From a virus, in the IMG/VR virus record IMGVR_UViG_3300049215_000778, positions 1-39,140 of that record: 39,140 bases of DNA; one strand, written 5' to 3'. Positions within the stretch are counted from its first letter, which is position 1. The number at the start of each line of letters is the position of its first letter. Of this stretch, positions 10,491-38,232 are shown one piece after another. A model generated the notes under the pieces. That model was not told the origin of the DNA, made no database searches, and saw only the letters and a list, made by a program, of their open reading frames with translations. The translations under genes were made by a program, and so were the position numbers.

Positions 10491-12217
10491 CAGTTGCCCC
10501 CGGCGGGAGTGAGCGAAGCCGCTTGGGCTGGCTTGTTCACCAGCCCAGGCAGCACGCTCTTGAGCCGGTTCTCCATGTGCCCAACCGTCTCTTTGGTGGC
10601 GCCGGGCGCGTGGATGTTGATCTCAATCTTCGAGACCGGAGAAACGGTGCTTGAGGTCGATTGCCCGCTCGTCTTCTGGCCTCGGCCGACTGGCGACGTG
10701 GCGACTCGGTCGATCTCGTTCTGCACCTTCGAGACCGGCGACACTCCAAGGCCGTTTTGGATGGCTGGAACGCTGGTGCGGAAGTCGAGGCCACCCTTCT
10801 CGGGATGCATCGGATCGAAGGCGCGCTCGTCGCCGCCGGTGTCGCTCAGCCGCTTCTTGGCGAGCCAATCGCCGAAACGACCATCAGCACCGAGTTTTTT
10901 CAGGAGGCCATTGGACTCGGCCGCCAACTCGCCAACCAACTTCACCACCTCGCCCAACTCGTGGCCCATCTTCTCGAACTCGACCGTTGCGGCTTGGAGC
11001 TTCTTCTGATCGAGCGAGCCATCGGGGCCGAACAGACTGTTGGTCGTGCCCAAGCCCTGGGTGAGCGAGTCGAGGAAGCCCTTGCCGAAGCCAATAGCGA
11101 CCTGAAACCCGCCGCCGATCAACTCGACGACCTGAAGTGCCTTGGTCAAGCCTGCTTCGATCTTCCCAACACCATCCTCGCCCGCGAAGTCGCCGAAGAT
11201 GCTTCCAAAAACTCCGCCGAAGGTGCGTGAGAAGCTTGCCTTGACGCGAGTGGCGAACGGGCTGAACGGGTCGGTTGCCTTCGCCACGTTCGAGAGGAAG
11301 TTTCGGAAAGTCTTGTAGGCAGGCGACTGATCGAGGTCCATCAGGAACTCGAGTTTGCGTGACTTGATGGTGGCCCACAGGCCCGAGACGGTCTGACCGA
11401 GTTTCTTGGAGATCGGGCCGAGTTTGCCGCCCTCTTTGTCGGCGACGGCCTGGAGGATGGCCGCGACGGCCGCCTCTTTGTCGATCAGCTTCTTGCTGAT
11501 CATGTGCTCGATCGTCTTCTTGTCGCGACCGTAGTAGCGCATCAGGTTGGAGAGGATTCCCTCCTCGCTGATGTTGGTCTCCTGGCTGAGGGCCTGGAGG
11601 TGCCGGCCGGTCAGACCCACCTGCTTGATCTCGGAGATCTGCCGCAGGAAGACGTCCATCGCGTCGGCGCGACCTGGGTTGAAGGCCTTGACGTCGCTGG
11701 CCGCAATCTCGATGGGGAAGAGTTGCTTCCGGTTGTAACCGGCCATGGTCAGCTTGGTGATTCCCTGGAGCGCTTCCTCGGTCTCGATCGGGAGCTTCGA
11801 CGCCAGCTTGATCGTGTTGGTGAGGGTCTCGCTGGCAGCATCGGCCGAGCCCATGATCGTCGTGAGGCTGACGAGGGTGGTCTCTTTGAAAGAAGCCGCC
11901 TCGATTGCGGCCTTTCCCATCTCGAAGCCGAACTCTCCGACGCCCTCGACGACGTGCCAGATCTCTTTCCCCAACTCGACGACATGCGCCCAATGGGTCG
12001 CCAGCGACTCGGCCTCGCGCGAGGCGTGTCGAGCCCCGGTCGCCGCTTTCTCACTTCCGTCGGCCAGCTTCTTCAGGCCGGCCGCGCCCTCAACGGCAGC
12101 TTCGCCGGCCAAATTCAACGTCACCGAAAGCTTGGAGAGAGACTTCTCCGCCTTGCTGGCCGGAGAGCTGATCTTGTCGAGGAGTGAGAACTCCCAAGTG
12201 AGATTTCGGTTGGCCAT
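10490..12217 (-). CDS. Tail tape measure protein
   Basis: 575 residues, short for the family. Alpha-helical and alanine-rich N-terminus (SKAEKSLSKLSVTLN and later AATGARHASREAESLA), then the conserved tape-measure block (AIEAASFKETTLVSLTTIMG, LPIETEEALQGITKLTMAGY), and a glycine-rich hydrophobic segment near residues 355-390 (VVELIGGGFQVAIGFGKGF) that could cross a membrane. At roughly 1.5 angstrom per residue it implies a tail of about 85 nm; that estimate is inference. It follows the tail assembly chaperone, as in nearly all tailed phages, and the start lies three bases after the end of the frameshifted chaperone product. Confidence 0.9.
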   Translation of the reverse strand: MANRNLTWEFSLLDKISSPASKAEKSLSKLSVTLNLAGEAAVEGAAGLKKLADGSEKAATGARHASREAESLATHWAHVVELGKEIWHVVEGVGEFGFEMGKAAIEAASFKETTLVSLTTIMGSADAASETLTNTIKLASKLPIETEEALQGITKLTMAGYNRKQLFPIEIAASDVKAFNPGRADAMDVFLRQISEIKQVGLTGRHLQALSQETNISEEGILSNLMRYYGRDKKTIEHMISKKLIDKEAAVAAILQAVADKEGGKLGPISKKLGQTVSGLWATIKSRKLEFLMDLDQSPAYKTFRNFLSNVAKATDPFSPFATRVKASFSRTFGGVFGSIFGDFAGEDGVGKIEAGLTKALQVVELIGGGFQVAIGFGKGFLDSLTQGLGTTNSLFGPDGSLDQKKLQAATVEFEKMGHELGEVVKLVGELAAESNGLLKKLGADGRFGDWLAKKRLSDTGGDERAFDPMHPEKGGLDFRTSVPAIQNGLGVSPVSKVQNEIDRVATSPVGRGQKTSGQSTSSTVSPVSKIEINIHAPGATKETVGHMENRLKSVLPGLVNKPAQAASLTPAGGN

Positions 12218-24583: not shown

Positions 24584-24655
24584 TGGAAGCGGGAGACGGA
24601 ATTGAACCGCCACGCCTGGCTTATGAGACCTGGCCACCCTCCAAGGTTTCCCGCA
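24584..24655 (-). tRNA. Divergent tRNA-Met(CAU)-like gene with encoded CCA
   Basis: 72 bases on the minus strand. The acceptor arms TGCGGGA/TCCCGCT pair at six of seven positions, with a T-T mismatch at the first pair. The T arm is standard (GGCGG-TTCAATT-CCGTC). The anticodon loop CTCATAA holds CAU with U33 and A37. CCA is encoded. Weak points are a short D arm (ACCT-TGGA-GGGT) with A at position 8, and an A-A mismatch in the anticodon stem. The T-loop and CCA argue for a real tRNA or tRNA-like RNA; function is uncertain. Confidence 0.6.
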
Positions 24656-24772: not shown

Positions 24773-24799
24773 CTATATAGAAAGAGCGCTCGGACGCTC
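24773..24799 (-). terminator. Possible terminator of the leftward early operon
   Basis: Minus strand GAGCG-TCCGAG-CGCTC followed by TTTCTATATAG, nine bases after the stop of the last early gene. The stem is short and the U-run interrupted. CTATATAG (24773-24780) could instead serve as a -10 element for the tRNA and late genes. Confidence 0.4.
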
Positions 24800-24814
24800 A
24801 GGATCTCTCAGGAT
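24797..24814. promoter_or_regulatory. Direct repeat, possible operator at the early-late border
   Basis: CTCAGGAT occurs at 24797-24804 and again at 24807-24814, a period of 10 bp (one helix turn). The pair overlaps the end of the HTH gene. Repeats in this phase are typical of protein sites, but none is known here. Confidence 0.4.
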
Positions 24815-25026
24815 TGCTCACGCGGGCGCTGGGCGCGGTCGAGCATGGTCAGAGAATCGAACAACTCCGACGCGCACTTGCGCAACTGGGAAAGGTAGAC
24901 GAGCCGCTTCTTGCCCGGACGCAAGTTTTTCAGCCCCGCTTGGTCGAGCAAGCGATAGAGCTGAAAGCGGGTGAACCCCGTCATCTGTGCCAACTCGGAG
25001 ATGGTGTAGGCGAGTTTGAGTTTCAT
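24808..25026 (-). CDS. Helix-turn-helix protein, candidate late regulator
   Basis: 72 residues; the ATG overlaps the upstream stop as ATGA. The sequence has a MerR/excisionase-like winged HTH (AYTISELAQMTGFTRFQLYR, LLDQAGLKNLRPGKKRLVYL, then SQL). It is the last gene of the leftward early operon, next to the tRNA and the late block, the place where late activators of temperate phages often lie. It could also be an excisionase-type factor, though the integrase is 13 kb away and has its own HTH neighbour. Confidence 0.75.
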   Translation of the reverse strand: MKLKLAYTISELAQMTGFTRFQLYRLLDQAGLKNLRPGKKRLVYLSQLRKCASELFDSLTMLDRAQRPREQS

Positions 25027-26770: not shown

Positions 26771-27009
26771 GGCGCACCTCGCTGCGGCACCTTCACGCCC
26801 AGGTTCTCGAGCCACCTCGGCGCCGGCAACTTCGACGAGCGCCAGTCGAACCAGCCACGCGAGCAAACCGCGACGCCCCAGATCGAGCAGAGCTTGGCGA
26901 TCTCGCACCCTTCGTGCTTCGGCAACTCGCACCGATGCGATTCCGAATTCGGGATGCCGTCGACCTCAAACGGGAAGTCGAGACCGGACCCCAACGAGTG
27001 GCCCGTCAT
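26767..27009 (-). CDS. Small cysteine-containing early protein
   Basis: 80 residues; the ATG overlaps the initiator stop as ATGA. Four cysteines and two histidines in HRCELPKHEGCEIAKLCSIW and a Trp-rich end (GVAVCSRGWFDWRSSKL). This could bind a metal ion. No family recognised. Confidence 0.6.
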   Translation of the reverse strand: MTGHSLGSGLDFPFEVDGIPNSESHRCELPKHEGCEIAKLCSIWGVAVCSRGWFDWRSSKLPAPRWLENLGVKVPQRGAP

Positions 27010-28040
27010 GCCGCACCTTCCTTTTTGCGGTGCTCCTCGAGCCACGCGGTGAACGGAGGGTTGCCATCGGACTGCCAGCGCTTCACGCACGATTCGCAGA
27101 TCGGAGTCCGAGCGACGCCGGCCGTGTGCGTTGCGGGCTCGGCCTGGCAACAAACGCACTTCGGCGGCGCTGCGGGTTCGGCTGGTGACGATGGAGCGAG
27201 GCCAACTCTCGTTGCGCGCGAGTGGCACTCGGCCCGCTTCTCGCGGGTGAAGCATCGCAACGGGCATGGCGGATCAAGCTTCTGGGCCCACGGGTCGGCG
27301 AGGTACGCGCGCCACGCAATCTCAACTCCGGCTTCGGAGAGCTGCGCAACGGCGTCTGAGATGAATGCATTCAGCCGAGGTTGAGCCGGGCCAGGGTCGT
27401 TCGGAGAATCCGGCAGGGCTTGCGTTCGCATCTCTTGGAGGCGAAGCCAGAGCGCTTCCTGTCGAGATGGCTGTTTTTGCTTTTTGGGGGCTGGTGCTGC
27501 TTCGGGTTCTGGCTGGTCGCCGAGCAATCCGAGCTGACCGGAAGACTCGGCGCTTTGATAATCTTCCGCTGCCCGCACCGCGAGAGATCTTTTTCTATTC
27601 TTACTCTCCTCTCCTCTCCTCTCCCCCAAATCGTCGCTCGGACACGTTGCGACAGTCTCCGGATGCTCGCGCGATTGTCGCGCGATTGTCGCGCGACGGT
27701 TCTGTTGACGGTCCCGATCGCGTTCGAGCTTCTTCAGATGGGCTTCGTTGTGCTCATCCCAGTCGTGGACTCGGTAGAGTTCGGCGTCGCCCTCGATGAA
27801 CCCGGCTGAGATTGCAGCAGCAACAAAGCGACCGGTCTCGCCTTCCCAACCCGCAGCCTCTTCGACCAATGCGCCAGCATGCCGGCCACGAACAACGCCA
27901 TCGGGCGCGAACTCGGAGCACCAGGCCCAGAGTTGTACGAGGTAGGACCATGCGCGCTTCTCGCCCAACTCACGGCCGAGAAGTCTCGCCTTTGGGTGGC
28001 GAGGAAGGTCCGCGTAGAGTTTGATCCAAGGCAGACCCAT
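27006..28040 (-). CDS. Phage replication initiator/replisome organiser
   Basis: 344 residues; its ATG overlaps the upstream stop (TGATG). Residues 1-110 have the winged-helix pattern of phage replisome organisers (GLPWIKLYADLPRHPKARLL, RAWSYLVQLWAWCSEFAPDG, AAAISAGFIEGDAELYRVHD). A basic, low-complexity linker follows. The C-terminal part has a zinc site (CVCCQAEP, PICESC). No helicase or loader gene lies nearby, so it probably recruits host DnaB directly. Its gene contains short tandem repeats that may be the phage origin, as in lambda O. Confidence 0.75.
   Translation of the reverse strand: MGLPWIKLYADLPRHPKARLLGRELGEKRAWSYLVQLWAWCSEFAPDGVVRGRHAGALVEEAAGWEGETGRFVAAAISAGFIEGDAELYRVHDWDEHNEAHLKKLERDRDRQQNRRATIARQSREHPETVATCPSDDLGERRGEESKNRKRSLAVRAAEDYQSAESSGQLGLLGDQPEPEAAPAPKKQKQPSRQEALWLRLQEMRTQALPDSPNDPGPAQPRLNAFISDAVAQLSEAGVEIAWRAYLADPWAQKLDPPCPLRCFTREKRAECHSRATRVGLAPSSPAEPAAPPKCVCCQAEPATHTAGVARTPICESCVKRWQSDGNPPFTAWLEEHRKKEGAA
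27585..27699 (-). other. Candidate replication origin inside the initiator gene
   Basis: Three tandem 11-bp units lie at 27667-27699: TCGCGCGATTG, the same again, then TCGCGCGACGG. Beside them is a pyrimidine tract with a 5-bp repeat (CTCCT, 27605-27625) and an A/T-rich stretch (27588-27604). Periods of 11 and 5 are not multiples of three and yield a non-repetitive protein, so the repetition is kept at DNA level. The layout matches iterons plus an unwinding element. Confidence 0.55.
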
Positions 28041-28267: not shown

Positions 28268-28581
28268 TCGGAATCCTCTCGCAGCGGAGACGCCTCGCAT
28301 ACGCCCCACCGGGCGCAGCCAGTGGGTTGCCTCACGAGTTGAAATTGCTGCCCCCCCCGATCAGTCGCGGCCCATCGCATGACTTCGCGGATGCCGACGG
28401 GCTCGACGCTGGGGCCGGCTTCGTTCTCGGGAACGCCTGACTTGATCAGGCGGCGCTTCTCCGGGCGACGGTCACGCGTGAACATCGTTGCGCCCATGCG
28501 TTCTTCGAGAGCTGCGATCTCGTCAATGCGTTCGGGCTGAAGCCGAGAGACCAACTCCAGCTCGCGCTTAGCGGCGTTCAC
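28264..28581 (-). CDS. Small early protein downstream of the methyltransferase
   Basis: 105 residues from a GTG that overlaps the methyltransferase stop (GTGA). Charged helical N-terminus (AAKRELELVSRLQPERIDEI), then a basic region (TRDRRPEKRRLIKSGVPENE). An eight-base G/C run (28351-28358) lies within the coding sequence and could make the frame unstable. No family recognised. Confidence 0.6.
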   Translation of the reverse strand: MNAAKRELELVSRLQPERIDEIAALEERMGATMFTRDRRPEKRRLIKSGVPENEAGPSVEPVGIREVMRWAATDRGGQQFQLVRQPTGCARWGVCEASPLREDSE

Positions 28582-29664
28582 GGCGCACCACCGATCAGCG
28601 CCCGAGGAGGTTCAATCTCCAGCGCGGCTTGGATGCGTCGGCCGAGCCACTCGCCGATTTGCGGCACCGCCGCATTGCCGAGGCAGCGAAGGCGGTCCAC
28701 CCGAGCGGGAATCCCATGAGCCACTCGACCCACGTCGGGTTCAGCGCCCCACCAGCCTGCACCGTCAACGGCGGCGAACCTTCGCAAGTCGAGCTGAGCC
28801 CCGGCGAACGCGCGTCCGCAGCGCGAGGCGTAGCCCACCGTTTCACCGCCGTTGGGGGTGTGGGGAACCCCCGGGGGGGGGGGGCCCAACCCCAGACTGT
28901 TCCGCTTGAGCTGAGATGCTCCCGCAACATTCCGAGCGTCGTTTGTTGTCGGCGTGGGCCAAACTCCCCGCTCCACCTTGCGAACCATCTTGGCCAGGTC
29001 CACTTGACGCTTGCGACCGTCCGGCACCATCCCCGTCGGCGAAACCTCCTCCGGCAGCGAGCGACCACCGTTCGAAGGCGTCGTTGGAGTCGGCCACATG
29101 CCGCGGCTGGCCATCGTGTCGAGCGAGGGCCTCACCGCTGCGCCCGAACTCGGACTCTGGTTGCTGCCGTAGCGGCTCGCGCTTGGCGTAGGCAACCACG
29201 AAGATTCGGTCACGGAGGTGAGGGGCGCCAACGGCGGCCGCTGGAATACAGTCCCACTCAGCATCAAACCCGAGCGAGGCCAGGTCTCCGAGAACTCGTC
29301 CGAAACCCCGAACGCGGAGCGCTGCGACGTTCTCCACAAGCACGACTCGGGGTCGTAGCTCGCGAATGATCCGTGCGAACTCGGACCAGAGTCCGCTGCG
29401 GGCTCTGCTGATGCCAGCTCGCTTGCCGGCGTTGCTGATGTCTTGGCAGGGGAAGCCCCCGCAGATGAGGTCAACGGGGGGGGCATTTTGTGTACCAACC
29501 TCGCGCACGTCGCGAAAGAGGCGCGTTCGAGGCCAGTGCTTCCGAAGCACTCGGCGCGCGTAGGGATCGATCTCAACCTGGAAGGCGCAGCGCATGCCGG
29601 CGCGCTCGAGACCGAGGTCGAGGCCACCGATGCCACTGAAGAGGGAGCCAAAGACGAGGGTCAC
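28578..29664 (-). pseudogene. C5-cytosine DNA methyltransferase, frame broken at a C12 tract
   Basis: From the GTG at 29664 (GTGA overlap) the first frame carries SLFSGIGGLDLGLERAG (motif I), FQVEIDPYARRVL, GGFPCQDIS (catalytic Cys, motif IV), VENVAAL (VI) and RDRIFVVA (VIII). It then hits a 12-base C run on the coding strand and stops at 28843. The rest, AGWWGAEPDVGRVAHGIPAR and VDRLRCLGNAAVPQIGEWLG (motifs IX-X), lies in the frame shifted by one. One C fewer would give a full protein of about 361 residues. It may be a phase-variable gene, a sequencing artefact or a true pseudogene. It would protect phage DNA from host restriction. Confidence 0.8.
28873..28884. repeat. 12-base G/C homopolymer tract in the methyltransferase gene
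   Basis: Twelve consecutive G on the plus strand (C on the coding strand) between CCCCC and CCC. The tract is exactly where the methyltransferase frame changes. Runs of 8 occur nearby at 29476-29483 and 28351-28358. Confidence 0.9.
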
Positions 29665-30164
29665 GTTGCCCACCCCCGAACCAACTCGGTCCAGTCGAAG
29701 CGCTGAGTGAGCGCCTCGCGGATGTCGATGCGAGATCCGTCGAAACCCTCGAGTTCGCCTTGGTAGACGAGCGCCACCGAGTGGACCTTGATTCGGCCCG
29801 CAGCGAAGTCGCGCCCGCTCTGAGTGACGCGCCAGAGTCCGGCGCGAGGGTTGCCGTCGGCCTTCTCGGCGTCGGCTTCCTGGAGCAGGCCCCAGTAGCG
29901 AAGCTTCGCGGGATCGCCTCGGAGCGTGGAGCGCAACTCGGGCGCCAGCGAGTCAGCGGCCAGCACCGTCGGCAGGTGCAACCACTCATCTGGTTGGCGA
30001 GCGAGGATGCACAGCGCCGCCGCCATCGAAGAGGTGAGCTTGCGCCGGTAAAGTTGGCAGTGAGAGCGGCACGCGCGGCAAGTCGTGCCCTTCACCCGAT
30101 CGAGTCGGATGCGCTCTTGCTCCTGGCGGAGCGTCGCTTCTCTGAAGGGAAGTTGGGGAGTCAC
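29661..30164 (-). CDS. Early protein with N-terminal Cys cluster
   Basis: 167 residues, GTG start overlapping the stop of the Cro-like gene (GTGA). The start is basic (REATLRQEQERIRLDRVKGT) and followed by TTCRACRSHCQLYRRKLTSS, a likely zinc site. Residues 45-120 suggest a winged-helix fold (AAALCILARQPDEWLHLPTV, RYWGLLQEADAEK, LWRVTQSGRDFAAG). A DNA-binding regulator is plausible. Widely similar proteins occur in phages, but no named function is known to me. Confidence 0.7.
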   Translation of the reverse strand: MTPQLPFREATLRQEQERIRLDRVKGTTCRACRSHCQLYRRKLTSSMAAALCILARQPDEWLHLPTVLAADSLAPELRSTLRGDPAKLRYWGLLQEADAEKADGNPRAGLWRVTQSGRDFAAGRIKVHSVALVYQGELEGFDGSRIDIREALTQRFDWTELVRGWAT

Positions 30165-32869: not shown

Positions 32870-32898
32870 CCCATTCCACACCAAAACTGGAGTTGAAC

Positions 32899-33594
32899 TT
32901 GAAGACCACCGAGAAGGTTCTGGCTTGGCATTTCGCCGCAGCAGATAAGCGCCTTGGATACGGCGACGGCAGACTGATCGTGCAGGGCAAGACGCTCATT
33001 CATCGCAAGGCTCAGGGCAAGATTCTGCTCTGCAACCGAGGCCTCCACGCCAGCATCAGCCCTCTCGATGCGTTGCAGTGGGCGCCGGGGCCCGTGGTCT
33101 GCCGCGTTGAGATGAGCGGGCAGATTGAGAGGGGAGATGACAAGTTGGTCGCCACGCGCCGAAAGACGCTGTGGTTGATCGAAGCCGAGCAGGGGAACCG
33201 GCTGCTTCGCGAGTTTGCTGTGTGGAGTGCTCGCGAGGCGTTGAGGCGAATCGAGAACCCCGATCCGAGGAGCTTGGCCGCCTGTGATGTTGCAGAGCGG
33301 TTCGCCCGTGGCGAAGCGACACGGGAAGAGCTCAACGCAGCGAGGGCCGCAGCGGAGTCCGCAGCGAGGGCCGCAGCGAGGGCCGCAGCGAGGGCCGCAG
33401 CGGAGTCCGCAGCGTGGTACGCAGCGAGGGCCGCAGCGGAGTCCGCAGCGAGGGCCGCAGCGGAGTCCGCAGTGTGGTCCGCAGCGGAGTCCGCAGCGTG
33501 GTACGCAGCGAGGGCCGAGCAGAACCGCCGCTTGGAGGAAATGCTCCTTGCGGCGGCTCCTGCGGCCTCGAAGAGCCGAAAGGCGGTGCGCTAA
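32899..33594 (+). CDS. Early protein with conserved N-terminal domain and Ala-rich repeat
   Basis: 231 residues. A TTG at 32899 has GGAG six bases upstream; a TTG at 32893 is possible. Residues 1-100 contain AWHFAAADKRLGYGDGRLIV, LCNRGLHASISPLDALQWAP and RVEMSGQIERGDDKLVATRR, a pattern shared by a widespread phage protein family of unknown function. The region from about residue 147 on is made of 15 four-residue units (AARA, AAES, AAWY, AVWS). The gene overlaps the RecT-like gene as TAATG. Confidence 0.7.
   Translation: MKTTEKVLAWHFAAADKRLGYGDGRLIVQGKTLIHRKAQGKILLCNRGLHASISPLDALQWAPGPVVCRVEMSGQIERGDDKLVATRRKTLWLIEAEQGNRLLREFAVWSAREALRRIENPDPRSLAACDVAERFARGEATREELNAARAAAESAARAAARAAARAAAESAAWYAARAAAESAARAAAESAVWSAAESAAWYAARAEQNRRLEEMLLAAAPAASKSRKAVR
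33337..33516 (+). repeat. 12-bp coding minisatellite, 15 units
   Basis: Fifteen 12-bp units without interruption: GCAGCGAGGGCC (AARA), GCAGCGGAGTCC (AAES), GCAGCGTGGTAC (AAWY) and one GCAGTGTGGTCC (AVWS). The repeat keeps frame, so unit number can vary without breaking the gene. Confidence 0.95.
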
Positions 33595-37259: not shown

Positions 37260-37873
37260 AAGAGCGCCCGATCATCATGCAAGGCGAGAGCGTGCGCGCC
37301 ATTCTCGCCGGCCGGAAGACGCAAACGCGACGGGTGGTGAAACTGCCTGATGCGCCAGGCCATCTCGGGAAGTGGGAACCGGGGCTCGTGGGTGGCGATG
37401 GGACCACCTCCGGGGATGGACGGAAGGCGCCGGAAATGCCGGTGCTCGCACACACCCGCACCGGCGCGTGCATCGGGTGTCCCTATGGCCTGGCTGGCGA
37501 TCGACTTTGGGTGAAAGAGGCCTTCCTTTTGATGACGCCCTTTCAGGTTCGATTCCGTGCCGATCTGCTTCATCCAGACATCGAGCGACCCGAGTGGAAA
37601 GGTCATTATCGCTCGCCTCTCTTTATGCCTCGATGGGCATCGCGCCTGACTCTGGAGATCACCGACACCCGAGCCGAGCGCCTTCGAGACATCACCGAAG
37701 CTGACGCCCTGGCCGAGGCCGCCGACTTCCACGACCAATTTCCTGAGCACGCGTTCTCTCGCCGAGAGGTCTATTCCTTCCTTTGGAACACCATCAACGG
37801 TAAGCGCGAGGGCTGTGACTGGGACTCGAACCCGTGGGTGTGGGTCGTCACCTTCAAGCGAGTGACGTCGTGA
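37256..37873 (+). CDS. Phage ASCH/PUA-like protein of the KTQTRRV family
   Basis: 205 residues from a GTG in a GTGA overlap. The start ([28 protein letters not shown]), CPYGLAGDRLWVKEAF, LFMPRWASRLTLEITDTRAE and NPWVWVVTFKRV match a widespread phage protein often near the integrase. It is a PUA/ASCH-type fold that probably binds nucleic acid; its phage role is unknown. It is the last gene before the excisionase-like gene. Confidence 0.8.
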   Translation: MKERPIIMQGESVRAILAGRKTQTRRVVKLPDAPGHLGKWEPGLVGGDGTTSGDGRKAPEMPVLAHTRTGACIGCPYGLAGDRLWVKEAFLLMTPFQVRFRADLLHPDIERPEWKGHYRSPLFMPRWASRLTLEITDTRAERLRDITEADALAEAADFHDQFPEHAFSRREVYSFLWNTINGKREGCDWDSNPWVWVVTFKRVTS

Positions 37874-38232
37874 GCAACACGCCCAGATACCTGACTAGCG
37901 ACGACATCGCTAAGAATCTCCAGGTCAGCAAACGCACCGCTCAGAAATACATGCAGCAGATGGTTCACCTTCAGAACGGTCGCGTGCTTCGGGTTACTGA
38001 GTCGGCCTACCATGCTTGGCTCGACCGCAACTCATTCGGTGGCTCATGTCCAAGCTATTCCGGAAAAAGGGTGGCGAGGTTTGGTATGCGGATCTCCGCT
38101 CGCTCGGTGGTGGCCAAAAAAGCACCCATTGCATCGACTACGAAGCCGCAAAAGGAAAACTCCGACTCCTCGAGCGCCAGGCGGTATCAGAGGCTCGTCG
38201 AGAAGCTGAGGAAGGGCCAAGGCAAACCGTAG
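37870..38232 (+). CDS. Excisionase-like HTH protein
   Basis: 120 residues, GTG start in a GTGA overlap. Residues 5-55 are an HTH of excisionase or MerR-like type (RYLTSDDIAKNLQVSKRTAQ, then KYMQQM). The C-terminal 60 residues are read from the same DNA as the integrase start and are basic and low-complexity, so the functional part may end near residue 60. Excisionase genes of similar phages lie just before the integrase. It would bind att DNA and favour excision. Confidence 0.65.
   Translation: MSNTPRYLTSDDIAKNLQVSKRTAQKYMQQMVHLQNGRVLRVTESAYHAWLDRNSFGGSCPSYSGKRVARFGMRISARSVVAKKAPIASTTKPQKENSDSSSARRYQRLVEKLRKGQGKP

Follow-up and report, generated by a model that had tools for sequence, protein, structure and literature searches.

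The window analysed here, the whole 39,140 bp stretch of an IMG/VR virus record, carries on its minus strand (27006..28040) a gene for a replication initiator of 344 amino acids, recognised by PHROG profiles and tblastn, which contains a candidate replication origin. The strongest profile match of the 344-residue ORF was to phrog_9474, a replication initiation protein (E=3.2e-23; residues 5-199 against positions 3-180 of the 288 in the profile, covering the N-domain and linker), followed by phrog_3926 (E=2.4e-17) and phrog_2509 (E=4.2e-7), both bearing the same annotation. Pfam returned no family for the protein at E<=1, RepA_N included, the PDB held no relative by sequence, and an exact-peptide search for relatives found none; tblastn identified Myxococcus phage Mx9 p49, Paenibacillus phage Harrison_65 and Faecalibacterium phage Lagaffe gp47. 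An alignment of relatives (A1) was dropped as too diverse. The C-terminus of the initiator (27006-27100) bears a four-cysteine, zinc-ribbon-like motif (KCVCCQAE...PICESC) that is absent from the named relatives examined. No helicase or P-like loader was recognised in the part of the neighbouring ORFs that was scanned, no Rfam family was found within the window, and GC skew showed no switch at the repeat site described below.

Some 345-375 bp inside this gene lie three 11-bp iterons (27664..27696, minus strand), evident in the sequence, by Tandem Repeats Finder (TRF) and by motif search, which read TCGCGCGACAA, TCGCGCGACAA and TCGCGCGAGCA on the coding strand and share the dyad core TCGCGCGA. 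On the plus strand the core occurs at 27667, 27678 and 27689, a spacing of exactly 11 bp, and TRF reports 2.7 perfect copies of TCGCGCGATTG at 27667-27696. The array possibly continues in the same register in degenerate form (27631..27663, minus strand), with 6/11, 4/11 and 8/11 matches, of which only the 8/11 unit is notable. Beyond it, a 24-nt purine tract of 5-bp period, (GAGGA)n, reads GGGGGAGAGGAGAGGAGAGGAGAG on the coding strand (27604..27627, minus strand; on the opposite strand TRF finds 4.2 perfect copies of CTCTC at 27604-27624) and is a putative strand-opening or helicase-loading segment. Directly after it comes the A-rich segment TAAGAATAGAAAAAGATCT (27585..27603, minus strand, read from the sequence). 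The coding-strand order is thus N-domain, iterons, ~36 bp of weak register continuation, GGGGGAGAGGAGAGGAGAGGAGAG and TAAGAATAGAAAAAGATCT. The preliminary description had reported three units at 11-bp spacing, a pyrimidine 5-bp repeat and an A/T-rich segment, and all of these were found exactly where it had placed them.

Taken singly, the core is no commoner in the window than expected (4 copies against 3.8, the single additional one lying at 12015), so the information sits in the spacing: triples of TCGCGCGA at such spacing are expected only ~4e-8 times given the dinucleotide content of the window. When codons were shuffled within the gene, 20,000 permutations yielded no lag-11 score as high as that of the site (25 of 30 matches) and no lag-5 score as high either (22 of 30). 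As neither 11 nor 5 is a multiple of three, the repetition belongs to the DNA rather than simply to a repetitive protein, as had been argued from its being out of frame. Across the window, at lags 7-29, a single ORF outscored the site, one at 33.3 kb with an alanine repeat (lags 12 and 24). That ORF (32893-33594) holds 15 copies of an in-frame 12-bp repeat at 33336-33517, encoding an alanine-rich, AARAAAESAAWY-like sequence, and is a protein repeat rather than an origin.

Structure prediction places the repeats at the edge of a compact DNA-binding domain. The AlphaFold2 model, built from a 34-sequence alignment, has a winged-helix N-terminal domain with a long following helix (aa 1-125; 27666..28040, minus strand), the putative iteron-binding domain, in which pLDDT exceeds 90 for most of aa 11-120 and the predicted order (helix-helix-strand-helix-helix-hairpin) is that of a winged helix. 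This confidently predicted fold, along with the phrog_9474 match, upholds the earlier identification of this gene as an initiator. The linker (aa 136-176) is predicted to be disordered and the C-terminal helices are of moderate confidence; at the protein level the repeats correspond to the last part of the long helix and to this linker. Foldseek found no match to the model at E<0.001, and by VIA its best matches were the MCM8 winged helix (Z 6.0) and a plasmid Rep-DNA complex (5kbj, Z 5.3), with only the N-domain comparing well; 4pta scored Z 4.6, and the scores of 5kbj and 4pta are not above background for winged helices. Z values of about 5-6 may reflect only the common winged-helix arrangement.

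Relatives of the initiator carry comparable arrays. Searching viral contigs by DNA alone for the iteron pair recovered an independent contig (L003) encoding a homologous N-domain, with 43% identity over the aligned N-region, and its layout matches that of the window: a TCGCGCGACnn array and TCGCGCGACGG units, then GAGAGGAGAGGAGAGGAG. A looser iteron pattern found initiator ORFs on two further viral contigs, one with a GGAC tandem (L210) and one with GAGAA repeats (L216). In a genome scan, a Betaproteobacteria MAG (L245/L251) proved to encode a homologous initiator with the same iteron, as two copies of CGCGCGACTGT and diverged copies, followed by (GGACC)n; four other genome matches to the iteron (L242, L243, L244 and L246) fell outside initiator genes. 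Homologs picked by profile only gave a varied picture. One of them (L348) carries GTCACGCAACC / GTCACGCACCG, then AGCGTGACACA / AGCGTGACCAG, then (GAGAA)5, and its GTCACGC units occur together with their reverse complement GCGTGAC, that is, one site in both orientations within an 11-bp register; no protein constraint explains such inverted copies in register. Another (L347) has 12-bp units, two more (L253 and L259) have GAGAA tandems, and in the weak homologs L349-L351 neither iterons nor a tandem were clear. Among six unbiased homologs of the window's N-domain family, significant 5-bp repeats occurred in three and a significant lag of 11 in one. Within the family, then, a tract after the N-domain is common and the period and sequence of the iterons vary.

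Arrays of 11-bp TCGCGCGAC units were also found in ORFs of another type (L213, L214, L215 and L219; ..GAPPEAIELAVEAIEAEQKKDAERRAKRAAQKAKERA.. then SRATVAR), which shows that the iteron is not exclusive to the window's initiator family. In L213 and L215 the arrays are followed by C-rich rather than purine tracts. These ORFs possibly belong to another replication protein family with a convergent origin.

Scans of viral contigs for the tandems themselves extended the pattern well beyond homologs. (GAGGA)4 gave 82 matches, and (GGGAA)4 and (AGAAG)5 at least 120 each, of which 80 were used; ORFs were chosen mechanically, and initiator identity was assigned by PHROG in the GAGGA set, where it names replication-initiation families, and by context in the others. 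Most matches, judged in this way, lay within an initiator-like ORF and on its coding strand, between about residues 124 and 232 (median 142), so that in most cases the tandems fall just past the DNA-binding domain in an initiator gene. In 1.47 Mb of tandem loci we counted 6 other 5-bp tandems of at least 18 bp against 161 target ones, a ratio which, the loci having been selected for the target tandems, says only that such tandems are otherwise rare. In the combined GAGGA and GGGAA sets, a significant 11-bp repeat was present in the 150 bp upstream of the tract in 51 of 101 non-redundant genes, where one was expected, compared with 1/97 downstream of the tract and 5/101 in the first 150 nt of the gene. 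Mean autocorrelation showed an 11/22/33 signal near the tract and none farther upstream, and the median gap between the last clear iteron and the purine tract was 11 bp.

Two samples chosen in other ways gave the same periods. An independent (GAAGA)5 set (n=47) had significant lags of 11 in 19, of 12 in 9 and of 22 in 10, and initiators selected by HMM only (n=57) had lag 11 in 13 and lag 22 in 12, against 1/350 and 0/350 of control ORFs. A significant lag of 5 occurred in only 2 of these 57. Helical-turn iterons thus occur widely among initiator genes, a subset of which is marked by the purine tandem; the proposition that every initiator carries the tandem was accordingly rejected. (GGGAA)4, intended as a same-composition control for GAGGA, failed as a control when it too landed in initiator genes, and about half of the matches to (GACGA)4 and to a 7-bp purine tandem were also in initiator genes. 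A definition as exactly GAGGA, or exactly 5 bp, was dropped, since GGGAA, GACGA and 7-bp units all land in initiators, and the description that fits the tract best is a short tandem, mostly of purines, that is out of frame. The idea of a general A/T-rich segment downstream was likewise rejected, the wider set showing an excess of only 4.5% in the first 15 bp. The window conforms to the wider pattern, with a period of 10-12 or 20-24 bp upstream and a purine tandem of non-3n period downstream on the coding strand, between the winged helix-turn-helix (wHTH) and the C-terminal half. Whether homologous genes lack the repeats, a check proposed in the preliminary description, is largely answered in favour of its reading: independent homologs and unrelated initiators have arrays at the same place and in the same polarity, with the qualifications that within the N-domain family the 5-bp tract is more regular than the 11-bp iterons and that the A/T-rich segment is not general.

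Repeats in a disordered linker could in principle be slippage products tolerated within a low-complexity protein region and devoid of any function as DNA, and both the predicted disorder of the linker and the frequency of charged low-complexity peptides in these initiators agree with such an account. Slippage, however, gives no reason for helical periods, whereas among the 101 genes smaller peaks accompany lag 11 at 10, 12, 20-22 and 24 and are missing at 8, 13, 16, 17, 19 and 23; lag 11 recurs in the independent (GAAGA) set, other ORFs of the same loci almost never show lags of 11 or 22, and iteron sequence is retained between diverged homologs. Nor does it account for the inverted copies in register in L348 or for dyad symmetry. 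We give slippage only a very small probability. If the site is an origin, the peptide it encodes would be a disordered linker joining the DNA-binding part to the C-terminal part, and would for this reason tolerate out-of-frame DNA repeats.

The iterons themselves show signs of being protein-binding sites. Folded 11-mers were dyad-symmetric more often than their permuted counterparts, 26 of 63 reaching p<0.05 where ~3 were expected (mean z +1.31, s.e. 0.14); the window's own unit contains the dyad core TCGCGCGA and, taken alone, gave p=0.099 in the dyad test. Similarity between iterons tracked similarity between N-domains (Mantel r=0.58, 0/2000 permutations, related pairs included), with a clear rise only above ~40% normalised similarity; as the rise is confined to higher similarity and related pairs are included, shared descent explains part of it. 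Tandem dyad-symmetric sites also fit operators, through which the initiator or another regulator would repress its own gene or block its transcription with no role in an origin, and many plasmid Rep proteins do bind their own gene region. The sites nevertheless lie hundreds of base pairs within the gene and not at a promoter, diverse initiators place a purine tandem on the same side, after the iterons, and the position equals that of the proven lambda and pSK41 origins, all of which leave the operator account with a small probability. Smaller still is the chance that this is a packaging, recombination or parS-like partition locus that merely falls in an initiator gene: other DNA-binding proteins could conceivably recognise TCGCGCGA arrays, and ParB_N gives a very weak match (E=0.014) to one ORF nearby, but the arrays occur specifically in initiator genes, beside the preceding DNA-binding domain, in many unrelated phages.

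We therefore consider it very probable that the site is a phage replication origin built into the gene of its own initiator, whose N-domain would bind the iterons. What the analysis shows is the repeats with their non-random period, their position within the initiator gene, a predicted winged-helix fold and a predicted disordered linker, and recurrence in the same polarity in many initiators; the origin reading draws on the initiator profile, codon shuffles, homolog arrays, group statistics, dyads, the Mantel correlation, the wHTH with its disordered linker, and the lambda and pSK41 precedents. Against it stand the presence of only three perfect iterons, the shortness of the A/T-rich element (~20 bp), the missing GC-skew switch, the failure to recognise a helicase or loader in the neighbouring ORFs scanned, and the TCGCGCGAC arrays in ORFs of another type. 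In the mechanism we propose, the N-terminal winged helix would bind three, and perhaps up to six, 11-bp iterons, and, with the iterons one helical turn apart, the bound molecules would align on one face of the DNA in a compact complex. This complex might strain or melt the neighbouring purine/A-rich tract, and the exposed strands would take up the host helicase, aided by the C-terminal half of the initiator, which by analogy with lambda O and pSK41 Rep may recruit host replication proteins; initiation would follow.

The closest precedent in layout is bacteriophage lambda, where four iterons and an AT-rich tract lie within the O gene (PMC7466680). In both, the origin, a proposed one in the window, lies in the middle of the initiator gene and has direct iterons containing dyads; the purine run that comes after the iterons has the same position and strand, and in lambda it reads AAAAGAAAAAAGAAAAGA and belongs to the unwinding region. 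They differ in that lambda has 18-bp iterons starting 20, 24 and 23 bp apart, or two turns (the lambda control gave lags 20, 23 and 24), whereas the window has 11-bp units at one turn, and in that the lambda unwinding tract is AT-rich whereas the purine tract of the window is strand-asymmetric but contains G, as (GAGGA)n, with an A-rich part of ~20 bp. The O-like PHROG of lambda was not among the matches of the window initiator. The lambda O/ori layout suggested in the preliminary description thus holds for the in-gene iterons, with the same place and polarity seen in other initiators, but not for the size and spacing of the units.

In the staphylococcal RepA_N plasmid pSK41, the N-terminal domain of Rep binds boxes located centrally within rep, the origin-encoded linker is dispensable and the C-terminal domain contacts primase (PMC5703833). 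The window resembles this system in its predicted winged-helix N-domain of ~120 aa and central in-gene boxes, and 5kbj is its second VIA match; pSK41 is, however, a plasmid and not a phage, its boxes are different, and the window protein has no Pfam RepA_N match. Mx9 p49, Harrison_65 and Lagaffe gp47, all annotated as replication initiation proteins, are N-domain homologs with 28-36% identity. Linker 5-bp repeats occur in Harrison (ACCTA) and Lagaffe (GTAGA/CCAGA), Mx9 has a 23-bp repeat, and both the TCGCGCGA iteron and a significant 11-bp array are absent from all three. A possible analogue of the role of the purine/pyrimidine tandem, and only an analogy, is the DnaD single-stranded DNA recognition element of the Bacillus subtilis oriC, a short-period element at the melted region that is read by a wHTH-type primosome protein (PMC10201434); unlike the window, it consists of TnnT repeats in a chromosomal origin driven by DnaA.

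In-gene iteron origins are already known, and what appears to be new here is the combination of one-turn iterons with a purine tandem and its recurrence across unrelated initiators. A search of the open-access literature found no description of one-turn 11-bp iterons with an out-of-frame purine tandem across unrelated initiators. We tentatively suggest, at somewhat less than even odds, that many unrelated initiator families share one origin grammar, comprising a winged helix, cognate dyad iterons at one or two turns and, out of frame on the coding strand, a purine tandem with units of GAGGA, GGGAA or GAAGA and also GACGA, GGACC or 7 bp. On this reading the purine character of the tandem persists as initiators and iterons change, so that it might serve generally for strand opening or loading, read by a factor shared by many hosts (helicase, its loader, SSB or primase), or else be an intrinsically melting or triplex-forming segment. 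To our knowledge, origins have been mapped in no more than a handful of phages. Should the layout hold, sequence alone could place the origin of many environmental phages within ~100 bp, and would at the same time point to the protein reading it and to the precise repeat for mutation. It also raises the question of what causes unrelated initiators to share one-turn iterons and an out-of-frame purine tandem.

Elsewhere in the window, a 10-bp repeat, CGCTCAGGAT, is present in 3.6 copies at 24787-24820, in non-coding-looking sequence beside tRNA-Met and a small HTH ORF (a possible terminase small subunit), and could be a packaging or regulatory site. The predicted tRNAs are both on the minus strand (tRNA-Val, 37810-37905; tRNA-Met, 24584-24655). 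A C5 cytosine methyltransferase frame at 28843-29673 (PF00145, E=9e-45) seems to continue in the overlapping frame 28578-29651, giving a span of 28578-29673, possibly through a frameshift.
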